A DNA stretch of 64,000 bases from contig NZ_SSOD01000020.1 of assembly GCF_004801305.1 (NCBI RefSeq), positions 1 through 64,000 of the forward strand. Direction: 5' to 3'. The notes under the pieces are model-generated. The model ran no database searches, was not told the origin of the DNA, and was given only the letters and a program-made list of their open reading frames with translations. This document shows positions 26,215 through 34,100 of the stretch, piece by piece (position 1 is the stretch's first letter; each line of letters begins with the position of its first letter). The stretch is from Pseudothauera rhizosphaerae (GTDB lineage: Bacteria; Pseudomonadota; Gammaproteobacteria; Burkholderiales; Rhodocyclaceae). Position numbers and translations under genes: made by a program.

Positions 26215-26814
<600 letters not shown>

Positions 26815-29704: not shown

Positions 29705-30949
29705 TTGAGCGTGCCGGGACGGCTGGAGGTGCTCCGGGAACGGGATTTCACGCTCTTCCTGAGCGCGAAGCTCCTGGTCACGCTGGCCGCAGAGATGGTC
29801 AGCGTCGCGGTCGGCATGCAGGTCTATGAACTGACCGGCGACCTGCTCGCCCTGGGGCTGGTCGGGCTGGCCCAGTTCCTGCCCTTCGTGGTGCTGATCC
29901 TGCCCGCCGGCCAGGTCGCCGATCGCAAGGAACGCAGCCGCATCATCGCCTTCTGCTTCGCGCTGCAGGGGCTGGCCTCGGCCGCGCTGCTGGGCATCAC
30001 GCTGGCGGACCTGCGTGCGGTCGGCCTGATCTACGCGGTGCTGGTGCTGCTCGGCTGCGCGCGGGCCTTCATGATGCCGGCCAGCCAGGCGGTGCTGATC
30101 AACCTGGTGTCCGCGCCGCGCTTCGCCCAGGCGGTGGCGCTGCATTCCTCGTCCTTCCACGTGGCGGTGATCGTCGGCCCGCTGCTGGGCGGCGTGGTGT
30201 ATCTGGGCGGTCCGCATGCGGTCTACGTCGCCTCGACCACGCTCTTCGCCTGCGCGGTGCTGCTGATGAGCCGCGTGCGCAGCGGCGTGCACCACTTCGA
30301 GACGCAGGAAGGCTCCCGCGGTGCCGGAGCGGTGTTCGAGGGCCTGCGCTTCGTGTTCTCCCGCCCGCTGGTGCTGGGGGCGGTGTCGCTCGATCTGTTC
30401 GCGGTATTGTTCGGCGGCGCGGTCGCCCTGCTGCCGGCCATGGCGCGGGACGTGCTGCAGGTGGACGCCGCCGGCCTGGGCCTGCTGCGCGCCGCACCCG
30501 CGGCGGGCGCGGCACTGGCCGCCGTGGCGCTGGTGTGGCGGCCGGTCCATCGCCACGTGGGGCGCTGGATGTTCGGCGGAGTGGCGGTGTTCGGCGCCTC
30601 GATGGCGCTGTTCGGCCTGTCGGCGAGCCTGCCCCTGTCGGTCGCGGCGCTGGCGTTGAGCGGCGCGGGCGACATGGTCAGCGTCTACGTGCGCCAGATC
30701 CTGGTCCAGCACGAGACGCCGGATGCGATCCGCGGGCGGGTCAGCGCGGTCAATGCGGTGTTCATCGGCGCCTCCAACCAGCTCGGCGATTTCGAGTCCG
30801 GCGTCGCCGCGCGCCTGCTCGGGCTGGTGCCCGCGGTGGTGTTCGGCGGTGCGGCCACGCTCGCGGTCGCCGGGGCGTGGATCAGGCTCTTTCCGGTGCT
30901 GGCGCGGATGGATCATTTCCCCCATCTGCGCCCGGCAGGCTCCCTATAA
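29705..30949 (+). CDS. MFS transporter (EntS-like, MFS_3 subgroup)
   Basis: This 414-residue protein has about 12 hydrophobic segments and the MFS loop motif GQVADRKERSRI between segments 2 and 3. FLSAKLLVTLAAEMVSVAVG and QVYELTGDLLALGLVGLAQF fit the EntS-type exporter subgroup. The second half contains ETPDAIRGRVSAVNAVFIGASNQLG, also typical. The start is uncertain: TTG 29705 has GGGGAGCC upstream, while GTG 29711 is an alternative. The substrate cannot be told from sequence, and no siderophore genes are nearby. Confidence 0.88.
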   Translation: MSVPGRLEVLRERDFTLFLSAKLLVTLAAEMVSVAVGMQVYELTGDLLALGLVGLAQFLPFVVLILPAGQVADRKERSRIIAFCFALQGLASAALLGITLADLRAVGLIYAVLVLLGCARAFMMPASQAVLINLVSAPRFAQAVALHSSSFHVAVIVGPLLGGVVYLGGPHAVYVASTTLFACAVLLMSRVRSGVHHFETQEGSRGAGAVFEGLRFVFSRPLVLGAVSLDLFAVLFGGAVALLPAMARDVLQVDAAGLGLLRAAPAAGAALAAVALVWRPVHRHVGRWMFGGVAVFGASMALFGLSASLPLSVAALALSGAGDMVSVYVRQILVQHETPDAIRGRVSAVNAVFIGASNQLGDFESGVAARLLGLVPAVVFGGAATLAVAGAWIRLFPVLARMDHFPHLRPAGSL

Positions 30950-30983: not shown

Positions 30984-33900
30984 ATGGCGTTCCACGCCGA
31001 CCTGCACGTGCACTCCAAGCATTCCCGCGCCACCAGCCGCGACCTGGACCTGGAGCATCTGGCCTGGTGGGCGGCGCGCAAGGGCATCGCGGTGGTGGCC
31101 ACCGGCGACTGCGTGCACCCGGCCTGGCTGGCGGAGATGAAGGACAAGCTGGTGCCCGACGGCAGCGGCCTGTTCGCCCTGCGGCCGGAGATCGAGGCCG
31201 AGGTGTGGCGGACCCTGCCGCCGAGTTGCCGGGCGCCGGTGCGCTTCATGCTCTCCACCGAGATTTCCACGATCTACAAGAAGGGCGAGCGCACGCGCAA
31301 GATCCACCACGTGGTCTACGCTCCCGACTTCGCCACCGCCGACCGCCTGGCGGCCAGCCTGGGGCGGATCGGCAACATCGCTTCCGACGGCCGGCCCATC
31401 CTCGGCCTGGATTCCCGCGACCTGCTGGAAACGGTGCTGGAATCCGGGCCGCACGCCTGCCTCGTGCCGGCGCACATCTGGACGCCATGGTTCGCCGCCC
31501 TCGGCTCCCAGTCCGGCTTCGATTCGATCCAGGAATGCTACGGCGACCTCGCCGGGCACATCTTCGCGGTGGAGACCGGGCTGTCGTCCGACCCGGAGAT
31601 GAACTGGCGGGTGTCCTCCCTGGACGGCTACCGGCTGGTCTCCAACTCCGACGCCCATTCGCCGGCCAAGCTCGGCCGCGAGGCGACGCGCTTTTCCTGC
31701 GCGCCGGACTATTACGCCATGCGCCGCGCGCTGGAAAGCGGCGACGGCTACGTGGGCACGGTGGAATTCTTCCCCGAGGAAGGCAAGTACCACATGGACG
31801 GCCACCGCGCCTGCGGCGTGCGGCTGGACCCGGTGGAGACCATCGCCCGCGGCGGCCTCTGCCCGGTATGCGGCAAGCCGGTGACCGTGGGCGTCGCGCA
31901 CCGCGTCGAGGCGCTGGCCGACCGTGACGTTGCGGTGCCACCGCCCACCGCCGGCACGGTGACCAGCCTGGTGCCGCTGCCCGAGATGCTGGCCGAAATC
32001 CTCGGCAGCGGCGTCGCCTCCCAGGGCGTGGCCCAGGCCTACGACCGCGTGTCGGCCGCGCTCGGGCCGGATTTCACCATCCTGTGCGAGACGCCCATCG
32101 ACGACGTCCGCCGCGCGCACCCGCTGCTCGGCGAGGCGGTCGAGCGGCTGCGCGCCGGCCGCGTGATCCGCCAGGCCGGGTACGACGGCGAATACGGCGT
32201 GATCCGCCTGTTCGAGGATGGCGAACTGGACCGCCTGACCCGCGGCGACCTGCTCTTCGACATGCCCCTGCCGCAGCGCCGGCGGACCGCAAGAACAGCG
32301 GCGCCCAAGGTCGACGAGACGCTGCCGGAAACGGCCGCCCCGCAGCCGGCAGCGCCCCTGCCTTCCGGCCGCGCCGGCATCCTCGCCGCGCTCGACGCCG
32401 ATCAGGCCGCAGCGGCCGCGGCGGTGGACGGCCCGCTGATCGTCGCCGCCGGCCCCGGCTCCGGCAAGACGCGCATGCTCACCCACCGCCTCGCCCACCT
32501 GATCCTGGAACGCGGCGAAGCGGCCGAGTCCTGCCTGGCGATCACCTTCAGCCGCCGCGCCGCCGGGGAGGTGCGCGAACGGCTCGCCGCGCTGCTGCCG
32601 GCGGACGCGGGGGAATGCGCGATCCACACCTTCCATTCCCTCGGGCTGGCCTTCCTGCACGCGGAGGGGGCGGCAGCCGGCCTGCCGGCGGATTTCCGCA
32701 TCGCCGACGAGCGCGAACGCGCTGCCGCCCTCGCCGCCGAACTCGATGTCGGCCAGGCCAAGGCCACCCGCCTGCTGAAGGCCGTCTCGCTGCTCAAGCG
32801 CACCGGCACGCCGCCCGCCGACGAGGAAAGCGCCGCCGCGCTGGCCGCCTGCCGCCGCCTCGGCCAGGCCGGCCACTGGGTGGATTTCGACGATCTGGTG
32901 GGCCTGCCGGTGGACATCCTGGAAAACGATCCCGCCGTCGCGGCACGCTGGCGCCGACGCTTCCGCCACCTCTGCGTGGATGAATTCCAGGACGTGGATG
33001 CGCGCCAGTACCGCCTGCTGCAACTGCTCGCGCCGTCCGCCGCCAGCGTCTGCGCCATCGGCGACCCCAATCAGGCGATCTACGCCTTCCGCGGCGCCGA
33101 CGCCACCCTGTTCGCCCGTTTCGGCGAGGATTTCCCGGGCGCCCGCACGCTGCGCCTGGGGCGCAACTACCGCTCCACCGGCAGCATCGTCGGCGCCGCA
33201 GCCCAGGTCATCGGCAGCGGCACGCCGGACGACCCCATCCGGCCGATGGGCGAACCGCTCACCCTGTACGCCGCCCTCGACGAGCGCGCGGAAGCGGATT
33301 TCGTCGCCGCCACGATGGAGAGCCTGCTCGGCGGCCACGACATGCTCGCCGCCCACCGCAAGGGCGCGGGAGGACGGGAAGAGCGCCCGCTCGGCTTCGC
33401 CGATTTCGCCGTGCTCTACCGCACCGACGCCCAGGCCAACCCGCTGCGCGAAACCCTGGACCGGGCGGGCATCCCGTACAAGAAAAGCTCGCCCGCACCC
33501 ATCGCCGGCCACGCCATGGTGGAAGCCCTGCTCGACGCCCTGGCGCAGCAGGGCATCGAACAGCAGGCCGCCCCCCTGCCCGACCGCATCACGGCCGCGG
33601 CCGAACGGCTGCGCCCGGAACAGGACGCCGCCGGCCAGGCCACCCTGGCCGAGGCCTTCCGCTGGCTCGCCGCGCTGGCCGCCGATGCGGACGAAACCCG
33701 GTTGCGCGAGCGGGTCGCCCTGTCCACCGAGGCCGATTTCTGGGACGCCCGCGCCGACCGCGTGTCCCTGCTCACCCTGCACGCCGCCAAGGGGCTGGAG
33801 TTCGCGGTGGTGTTCGTGGTCGGCGTCGAGGACGGGCTGATGCCCTTTTCCTGGGGCGCGGCGGACGCGGAAACCTCCACCGCCGATGCGGCCGAGGAAC

Positions 33901-34100
33901 GCCGCCTGTTCTACGTCGCCCTGACCCGCGCCAAGGACCGGCTCTTCCTCACCCGCACCCGCGAACGCGCCTGGCGCGGCCAGCGCCGCACCCTGCCGCC
34001 CTCGCCCTTCCTGGACGACATCGCACCGGAACTGCTGCGCGCGCAGGAGGCGCCGCCGCGCCCGGCACGCGCCGCGCAGCAGCAGTTCAACCTGTTCTGA
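30984..34100 (+). CDS. Endonuclease Q-like PHP nuclease fused to UvrD-type helicase, 1,038 aa
   Basis: Residues 1 to about 420 match the EndoQ/TIGR00375 family: PHP metal motifs DLHVHSKHSRATS, GDCVHP, STEIS, VPAHIWTPW and SNSDAHSP, then a zinc-binding region CGVRLDPVET and CPVCGKPVTVGVAHRVEALA. EndoQ cuts 5' to deaminated bases and abasic sites. From about residue 470 a complete SF1A helicase follows: GPGSGKT, ITFSRRAAGEVRERL, CVDEFQDVD, GDPNQAIYAFRGAD, LGRNYRST, LTLHAAKGLEFAVVF and FYVALTRAKDRLFL. The join (about 425-465) is Pro/Ala-rich. The fusion implies lesion nicking coupled to strand unwinding in DNA repair. TATAAT at 30945-30950 may give it its own promoter. Confidence 0.9.
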   Translation: MAFHADLHVHSKHSRATSRDLDLEHLAWWAARKGIAVVATGDCVHPAWLAEMKDKLVPDGSGLFALRPEIEAEVWRTLPPSCRAPVRFMLSTEISTIYKKGERTRKIHHVVYAPDFATADRLAASLGRIGNIASDGRPILGLDSRDLLETVLESGPHACLVPAHIWTPWFAALGSQSGFDSIQECYGDLAGHIFAVETGLSSDPEMNWRVSSLDGYRLVSNSDAHSPAKLGREATRFSCAPDYYAMRRALESGDGYVGTVEFFPEEGKYHMDGHRACGVRLDPVETIARGGLCPVCGKPVTVGVAHRVEALADRDVAVPPPTAGTVTSLVPLPEMLAEILGSGVASQGVAQAYDRVSAALGPDFTILCETPIDDVRRAHPLLGEAVERLRAGRVIRQAGYDGEYGVIRLFEDGELDRLTRGDLLFDMPLPQRRRTARTAAPKVDETLPETAAPQPAAPLPSGRAGILAALDADQAAAAAAVDGPLIVAAGPGSGKTRMLTHRLAHLILERGEAAESCLAITFSRRAAGEVRERLAALLPADAGECAIHTFHSLGLAFLHAEGAAAGLPADFRIADERERAAALAAELDVGQAKATRLLKAVSLLKRTGTPPADEESAAALAACRRLGQAGHWVDFDDLVGLPVDILENDPAVAARWRRRFRHLCVDEFQDVDARQYRLLQLLAPSAASVCAIGDPNQAIYAFRGADATLFARFGEDFPGARTLRLGRNYRSTGSIVGAAAQVIGSGTPDDPIRPMGEPLTLYAALDERAEADFVAATMESLLGGHDMLAAHRKGAGGREERPLGFADFAVLYRTDAQANPLRETLDRAGIPYKKSSPAPIAGHAMVEALLDALAQQGIEQQAAPLPDRITAAAERLRPEQDAAGQATLAEAFRWLAALAADADETRLRERVALSTEADFWDARADRVSLLTLHAAKGLEFAVVFVVGVEDGLMPFSWGAADAETSTADAAEERRLFYVALTRAKDRLFLTRTRERAWRGQRRTLPPSPFLDDIAPELLRAQEAPPRPARAAQQQFNLF

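Follow-up and report, generated by a model that had tools for sequence, protein, structure and literature searches.

What does a bacterium do with an endonuclease Q (EndoQ) that carries its own helicase? The question is raised by a 64,000-nucleotide stretch of Pseudothauera rhizosphaerae DNA (contig NZ_SSOD01000020.1, positions 1 to 64,000; hereafter the window), from a genome assembly of 4.6 Mb in 45 contigs. A first look at the letters of the window (the original prediction) placed such a fusion at 30984–34100 on the forward strand and proposed a self-contained repair machine that nicks DNA at a deaminated base and at once peels off the damaged strand. The open reading frame is intact, with an ATG start, zero internal stops and six open in-frame codons 5′ of the ATG. 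We found that the protein consists of an EndoQ module, a flexible linker, a superfamily 1A (SF1A) helicase with a reduced 2B region and a C-terminal peptide of the type that binds the β sliding clamp. It is probably a one-chain enzyme, tethered to the clamp, that carries out an alternative form of excision repair at abasic sites and deaminated bases.

The N-terminal half is an EndoQ, as the original prediction had it. Residues 3–412 aligned with residues 3–385 of PfuEndoQ (PDB 5zb8; phmmer against PDB sequences, E 1.2e-43), a similarity that spans the whole length of the enzyme, beyond the PHP domain alone, and the PHP metal motifs and catalytic residues are kept. The key residues of the module are D6, H8, H10, D42, E93, H108, H164, G199, S201, D223 and H225 in the window protein. 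We aligned 156 EndoQ-type rows, 110 of them fused and 46 labelled as alone, after removal of seven duplicate-genome rows. D6, H10, D42, E93, H108, H164, G199, D223, H225, C277, C293 and C296 were invariant (156/156), S201 was Ser in 153/156 rows and position 109 was variable. Window E93, H108, H164 and D223 pair with Pfu E76, H84, H139 and the Asp of the SNSDAH motif, and G199 and S201 pair with G169 and S171; the invariant columns therefore include the counterparts of all these Pfu residues except S171, whose column is the one kept in 153 rows. In PfuEndoQ, E76, H84 and H139 are essential active-site zinc ligands, and H139, G169 and S171 keep T and A out of the pocket (PMC8307549, PMC6202378). 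D223 would be the counterpart of an essential Asp, since Asn replaces the SNSDAH Asp in the 7k30/7k31 constructs and that Asp is presumably the essential one. Two groups of rows stood out in the alignment: a subgroup of fused proteins with Gln at the position of PHP His8 (L089, L090, L091, L092, L094, L100 and L120) and another set with Asn at position 109 (L122, L128, L129, L131, L132, L133 and L135).

The zinc region, which the original prediction described as kept, has its four ligands. They are arranged as His-x2-Cys...Cys-x2-Cys (HCCC) and not as the four Cys (CCCC) of PfuEndoQ, the first of which is replaced by His; position 274 is His in 151/156 rows and Cys in five. Searched with NCBIfam TIGR00375, a hypothetical equivalog, the fusion scored 135.4 bits and did not reach the curated cut-off of 326.6, and Pfam gave helicase and P-loop families only, with no PHP family match in the window protein at E 0.001. 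Because of this missing PHP match and the low TIGR00375 score, routine annotation would probably call the fusion a UvrD-type helicase.

The C-terminal half matched PcrA (1pjr, E 5.6e-76 in a search of PDB sequences) and the Pfam families UvrD-helicase (residues 471–718) and UvrD_C (907–992). SF1A motifs Q, I, Ia, II, III, IV, V and VI are all present in the window protein, as read from the alignment. K495, D666, E667, Q669, Q697, R730 and R813 were invariant in the 110 fused rows, four of which (L152, L153, L155 and L156) are ended by contig ends. The claim of an SF1A helicase with every motif was correct, and it overlooked a 2B region of about half the usual length. Counted from the end of the first 2A segment to motif V, this region has a median of 90.5 residues in the 106 uncut fused rows, at most 125 in 92 of them, compared with 162–175 residues in 30 UvrD/Rep paralogues. 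We conclude that 2B reduction is common in the fused helicases, not universal. In two uncut fused rows, L123 and L210, just 15 and 17 residues stand at this region. The helicase half also scored below the NCBIfam cut-offs for pcrA, rep and uvrD (344.5 against 911.2 bits for pcrA). In a helicase tree built without the short rows L153 and L156, the 108 fused helicases form one side of a branch away from the 30 UvrD/Rep paralogues (Shimodaira–Hasegawa-like approximate likelihood-ratio test (SH-aLRT) support 96), and on this topology they are a separate SF1A clade.

The original prediction missed the end of the chain. The window protein finishes in QQQFNLF, and QFNLF is a variant of QLxLF, the bacterial clamp-binding consensus, which is mostly C-terminal (PMC4549789). 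In a MAFFT alignment of 76 rows (A1, with L056 left out), Q1034 was conserved in 76/76, L1037 in 75/76 and F1038 in 65/76, and the adjoining columns 1019–1033 were poorly conserved (0.8–2.2 bits). A canonical motif lay within the last 45 residues of 66/77 proteins (81 minus L093, L127, L130 and L134, which are ended by contig ends), against a mean of 0.74 and a maximum of 4 in 500 shuffles; as related rows are not independent, the shuffles rule out composition alone as the cause of the motif, and no more. We then enlarged the set with fusions from three phyla: nine came from that of the window, four from the one to which L102, an Opitutia record, belongs and 20 from the one of L133, titled Desulfobacteraceae. 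Here the last 30 residues were tallied with a slightly wider canonical pattern. The canonical motif was present in 89/106 uncut fused rows and a loose form in 99/106; uncut standalone EndoQs had the canonical motif at their C-terminal end in 21/45 cases and the loose one in 29/45. We also compared the tails of 31 UvrD/Rep paralogues, which stand for 30 genes because L003 and L005 are the same one; the canonical motif was absent from all of them, and one had a loose match. Two more rows of this comparison were the window gene itself. In the fusion, the motif ends the helicase, not the EndoQ domain. Among L162–L191, many standalone EndoQs show a clamp-type motif straight after the EndoQ domain. 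The C-terminal PIP box of archaeal EndoQ binds PCNA, which stimulates nicking, and clamp motifs have been noted in bacterial EndoQ homologues (PMC4858679); the COG1379 protein of P. abyssi, which has a PIP box at its C-terminus, likewise turned up as a partner of PCNA (PMC3820547). The tail of the fusion may well bind the β clamp DnaN.

Structure prediction recovered both folds. An AlphaFold model of the window protein, computed with 75 homologues (a 76-row alignment), had a mean predicted local distance difference test score (pLDDT) of 86.9 and a predicted template modelling score (pTM) of 0.77. Foldseek searches with the model found PcrA (1qhg, E 3.0e-42) and PfuEndoQ (5zb8, E 6.8e-28, TM-score by target length 0.88), and UvrD too. 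The pLDDT fell below 50 at residues 422–455 (the linker), 785–797 and 1029–1038 (the tail). In comparisons with L056, L059 and L057, NG86 ratios of non-synonymous to synonymous substitution rates (dN/dS) were 0.14–0.19 for the EndoQ half, 0.29–0.37 for the helicase half and 0.50–0.65 for the linker (amino acids (aa) 417–460). We conclude that both halves are under purifying selection and that the linker is weakly constrained.

Relatives of the fusion are spread far beyond the window. The genome collection yielded 314 loci, of which we kept the best 80, and figures per 80 loci rest on these. All 80 span both halves, four in part only. By title, 42 are Pseudomonadota, 12 Melainabacteria, nine Verrucomicrobiota, five Myxococcota, three Chloroflexota and three Actinomycetota, with one each from Planctomycetota, Elusimicrobiota, Omnitrophota, Calditrichota and Thermodesulfobacteriota, and one unplaced. 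The phylum names are record titles, many of them of metagenome-assembled genomes, and a single locus stands for each of five of the 11 phyla; misbinning is possible, because L089, titled Anaerolineae, groups with alphaproteobacterial rows. The original prediction had put the fusion forward as the best local candidate for an under-described system. It is real and apparently undescribed, and with relatives in 80 kept loci it is not special to the window.

Frequencies differed between the groups sampled. A full-length match was found in 2/61 related genomes, and in the window's phylum the EndoQ half was present in 18/398 genomes (10 fused, seven alone and one ended by a contig end). The phylum of L102 had a TIGR00375-type match in 10/194 genomes, five of them fused (E 1e-15). 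By the same search and threshold, an EndoQ-like gene was present in 131/198 genomes sampled from the phylum of L133. EndoQ has been pictured as euryarchaeal with few bacterial exceptions, such as Bacillus and Desulfovibrio (PMC4357722, PMC8438529), and the original prediction likewise held it to be known mainly from archaea and some bacteria; the count in L133's phylum widens this picture, since it shows at least one phylum of bacteria in which such genes are frequent. In that phylum, 51 genomes had an open frame of at least 850 residues and 80/131 had shorter ones, some of them ended by contig ends. Twenty of the 51 long frames, chosen non-randomly, were checked and all 20 had both halves; one further frame (G470) belongs to the genome of L133, a fusion. 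As a control, the TIGR00375 search was run on 14 named genomes, from which it recovered those of B. subtilis, M. jannaschii and M. acetivorans.

The two halves have travelled together, because distances between EndoQ halves agree with those between helicase halves (Mantel rho 0.84; highest of 500 permutations 0.21) and the fused helicases lie on one side of their branch. The phylogenetic survey that the original prediction had proposed thus found co-inherited halves in loci titled as 11 phyla, and judged by these records the fusion is old and widespread. In an EndoQ tree made by a quick method with a midpoint root and long branches flagged, the split between fused and alone needs four changes in 156 rows, at least one of them due to L216, a row that was labelled alone and is truncated by the end of its contig. 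Among the fused rows of this midpoint-rooted tree sits a standalone clade of 33 rows, which suggests an early fusion and later fission. A different arrangement was found at L212:5300-8270, where an EndoQ and a short-2B helicase are adjacent genes on the same strand, a split form of the fusion in which both chains carry a clamp-type motif at the end. The EndoQ frame finishes in GQMRLL, the ATG of the helicase frame lies one base past the EndoQ stop, and the helicase chain ends in NQMELFS. L212 is the only one of 30 standalone loci in its phylum with a helicase in the flank (up to 1.5 kb). In the helicase tree, its motor lies on the side of the paralogues and not of the fused rows, on a long end branch, yet its 2B region is short (87 residues). 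The pair may be a pre-fusion arrangement or else a later split of the fusion.

How would these parts work together? The EndoQ nick leaves a 3′-OH and a 5′-phosphate (PMC4357722). A review has this nick repaired by a DNA helicase with FEN1, polymerase and ligase (PMC8438529), and another depiction has strand displacement and FEN1 after it (PMC4357722). The EndoQ half of the fusion would flip out its lesion, either an abasic site or a deaminated base (uracil, hypoxanthine and perhaps xanthine), and cut the strand on the 5′ side, leaving a 3′-OH. The helicase half, on its flexible linker, would load at the nick onto the intact strand and travel along it, 3′ to 5′ to judge by its SF1A kinship, past the lesion, so that the lesion-bearing strand is peeled off as a 5′ flap. 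A polymerase could then extend from the 3′-OH, and other nucleases and ligase would complete the repair. The QLxLF-type tail would tie the enzyme to the β clamp, and hence to freshly replicated DNA, just as PCNA tethers the archaeal EndoQ, and would put it where a polymerase can extend the 3′-OH. This order of steps, which we infer, fits because the window protein retains its catalytic and gating residues together with an intact set of helicase motifs, and because the review places a helicase after the EndoQ nick. To that extent the nick-then-peel machine of the original prediction holds; its specificity for deaminated bases is presumed from the conserved residues.

The order could also be reversed, with a motor that translocates first and opens the DNA while EndoQ scans the exposed strand, a lesion patrol comparable to RecBCD/AddAB. 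The 2B region is autoinhibitory in Rep, UvrD and PcrA, and because it is reduced in the fusion the motor may be constitutively active. A motor-first enzyme would gain from a 2B region of about half size in most fused rows and from a flexible linker, and PfuEndoQ cuts U and Hx (hypoxanthine) in single-stranded DNA efficiently (PMC11354406). However, archaeal EndoQ nicks damaged DNA without a helicase (PMC4357722), and standalone EndoQs have the same kind of tail with no helicase in the flanks examined. We consider this main rival unlikely. The excision-repair reading can be extended to a widespread, undescribed bacterial route, in which a clamp-tethered protein of one chain, present in records of 11 phyla, finds abasic sites or deaminated bases in DNA that has just been replicated, makes the 5′ nick and strips the damaged strand away through a mostly 2B-reduced, possibly constitutively active motor; on that broader proposal we are evenly divided.

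Several observations weigh against the excision-repair reading. PHP position H8 is Gln in seven fused rows, and the 2B region is 131–170 residues long in 14/106 uncut fused rows. Even the loose tail motif is missing in 16/45 uncut standalone and 7/106 uncut fused rows, and aa 1019–1038 as a whole are weakly or not constrained (dN/dS 0.60–1.07 in three close pairs). There is no operon partner widely shared across the 80 loci: the commonest flanking family occurs in 14/80, on both strands and at varying distance, and an HhH-GPD-like gene lies near the fusion in 4/80. Four LexA-type patterns were scanned in 250 bases upstream of the gene and 15 inside it at 78 loci; CTGT-N8-ACAG, GTTC-N7-GTTC and GAAC-N7-GAAC had no exact match there, and GAAC-N4-GTTC occurred in 2/78 loci only (the near-alike L101 and L102; 0.12 expected from coding-region controls). 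Finally, a gene of the uracil-DNA glycosylase (UDG) superfamily is also present in 31/34 EndoQ-bearing genomes tested.

This last count makes a second uracil route perhaps unneeded and so bears on another reading, that the substrate of the EndoQ fold has changed, for example to ribonucleotides or another backbone lesion, with the helicase serving that pathway. The low TIGR00375 score could be read the same way. However, the protein retains the pocket residues that admit U and Hx and shut out T and A, and the TIGR00375 cut-off was reached by 0/194 and 0/198 genomes of the two other phyla sampled, including all 10 and all 131 with matches, so that it marks a narrow group. We regard a drifted substrate as improbable. 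The UDG-superfamily family PF03167 was found in 18/20 genomes (12/14 EndoQ-bearing, 6/6 non-bearing) and, in a second set, in 19/20, all bearing; because it co-occurs, the fusion would be a parallel repair route, perhaps for hypoxanthine. The idea that the fusion replaces UDG was rejected on the same co-occurrence. As for a complementary distribution of EndoV, this gene was found in 43/398 genomes of the window's phylum and in 0/18 EndoQ-bearing ones, where about 1.9 would be expected; in another genome set it was found in 1/31 EndoQ-bearing and 1/8 non-bearing genomes, and the differences are not significant.

The surroundings of the gene vary. In the window it is flanked by an MFS and a LysR gene, one on each side (Pfam). 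It spans two 2-kb bins with a G+C content of 0.714 and 0.742, the second being the top of 32 bins, and the bins around it are at 0.71–0.73. The sister genome G001 carries the fusion at a different location, and no empty site matching the window locus was found there, the flanks being non-syntenic. An 83% identical copy of the upstream MFS transporter gene (29705–30949) also lies at a different place in G001, without the window's neighbours, so gene order around the fusion is not conserved between the two. L056, L057, L059 and L084 have only the fusion gene in common with the window region (76–86% identity), and the gene seems to move alone. Carriage by a mobile element was rejected as a candidate: plasmid and phage searches at E 1e-5 yielded no relative of the EndoQ half, and viral contigs scanned with two peptide patterns yielded none of the fusion protein. 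SOS control, tried as a candidate, was rejected, LexA-type patterns being all but missing upstream of the 78 loci. Pfam scans of neighbours beyond the window covered 10 genes. A gene like HhH-GPD base-excision glycosylases adjoins the fusion in four alphaproteobacterial loci (L062:636-1472, L069, L083 and L094:4676-5398; Pfam-checked in L062 and L094 only), and a separate PHP-domain gene directly follows it in two Melainabacteria loci (L113:8890-9732 and L119:8836-9687). About 4 kb upstream of the fusion, the window has a gene of the nucleoside-deaminase family (26218–26793, reverse strand), which we take to be TadA-like, with no sign of a link to the fusion.

Patchy distribution and differing flanks, as in the four loci that share the gene alone with the window, would also suit a factor directed against phages or plasmids, one that attacks DNA with uracil or modified bases in the manner of Gabija-like helicase–nuclease defence. 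The helicase half matches PADLOC GajB models (best E 3.3e-72), and bacterial EndoQ may join antiviral defence according to a review (PMC8307549). However, the GajB score seems to reflect the resemblance of UvrD-family helicases in general (NCBIfam PcrA, E 1.3e-102), and the clamp-type tail points towards replication. Nor do the MFS and LysR neighbours suggest defence: PADLOC matched none of its families to the MFS and HxlR genes and gave the LysR regulator weak CARF/Csa3 matches only. No GajA was among the PADLOC matches listed for these four window proteins (for the fusion, the best 25 of 51 families). A defence role is, in our judgement, a slim prospect.

Features of the fusion gene in the window (feature, coordinates, strand, basis or size)
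Whole gene: EndoQ, linker, SF1A helicase, clamp-type tail	30984..34100	+	1038 aa
EndoQ module (aa 1-416)	30984..32231	+	PfuEndoQ 5zb8 match; Foldseek; conserved residues
Zinc ribbon positions H274-x2-C277 ... C293-x2-C296	31803..31871	+	alignment, 156 rows
Flexible interdomain linker (about aa 420-463)	32241..32372	+	pLDDT <50 at 422-455; dN/dS
SF1A helicase module (about aa 464-1018)	32373..34037	+	PcrA/UvrD/Rep matches, Pfam, Foldseek, motif alignment
Walker A GPGSGKT (aa 490-496, K495)	32451..32471	+	K495 in 110/110 fused rows
Reduced 2B region (aa 835-925, 91 residues)	33486..33758	+	alignment with fused rows and paralogues
C-terminal β-clamp-type peptide QFNLF (aa 1034-1038)	34083..34097	+	conservation, shuffle control, paralogue control

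If the excision-repair reading is true, recognition, incision and strand removal are united in one chain. Published accounts differ on the step after the EndoQ nick, and a helicase and a clamp-type peptide on the EndoQ chain itself mean that the order of steps can be tested directly in mesophiles that grow in culture. The variation of the 2B region within the family, from about half to nearly full length, is in addition a natural test of the role of 2B in UvrD-type motors. A full-text search of open-licence literature found no description of an EndoQ–helicase fusion; the parts are known, and their combination, the tail, the 2B variation and the breadth of the family appear to be undescribed.

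Among known systems, EndoQ itself (PfuEndoQ 5zb8 and 7k30, and the enzymes of T. kodakarensis, M. acetivorans and B. pumilus) has the same catalytic, base-gate and zinc positions as the fusion and likewise a clamp-binding-type motif at the extreme C-terminus (a PIP box in archaea, PMC4858679), whereas in the fusion about 555 residues of helicase separate the EndoQ domain from that motif and the zinc ligands are HCCC in place of CCCC. With PcrA, UvrD and Rep the fusion has the SF1A motifs and fold in common; it differs from them in the roughly half-length 2B region shared with most of its relatives, in its separate branch, in scores below the NCBIfam cut-offs and in the clamp-type tail. In Gabija, GajA is a separate nuclease partner encoded beside the helicase. 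The fusion resembles GajB as a UvrD-family helicase working with a nuclease, but the nuclease, a PHP EndoQ, belongs to the helicase's own chain, and no defence context was found. AddAB/RecBCD and AdnAB also unite a UvrD-type motor and a nuclease in one machine and are distant kin by profile and fold searches. Their nuclease differs in kind from EndoQ, whereas that of the fusion is N-terminal and presumably specific for lesions.

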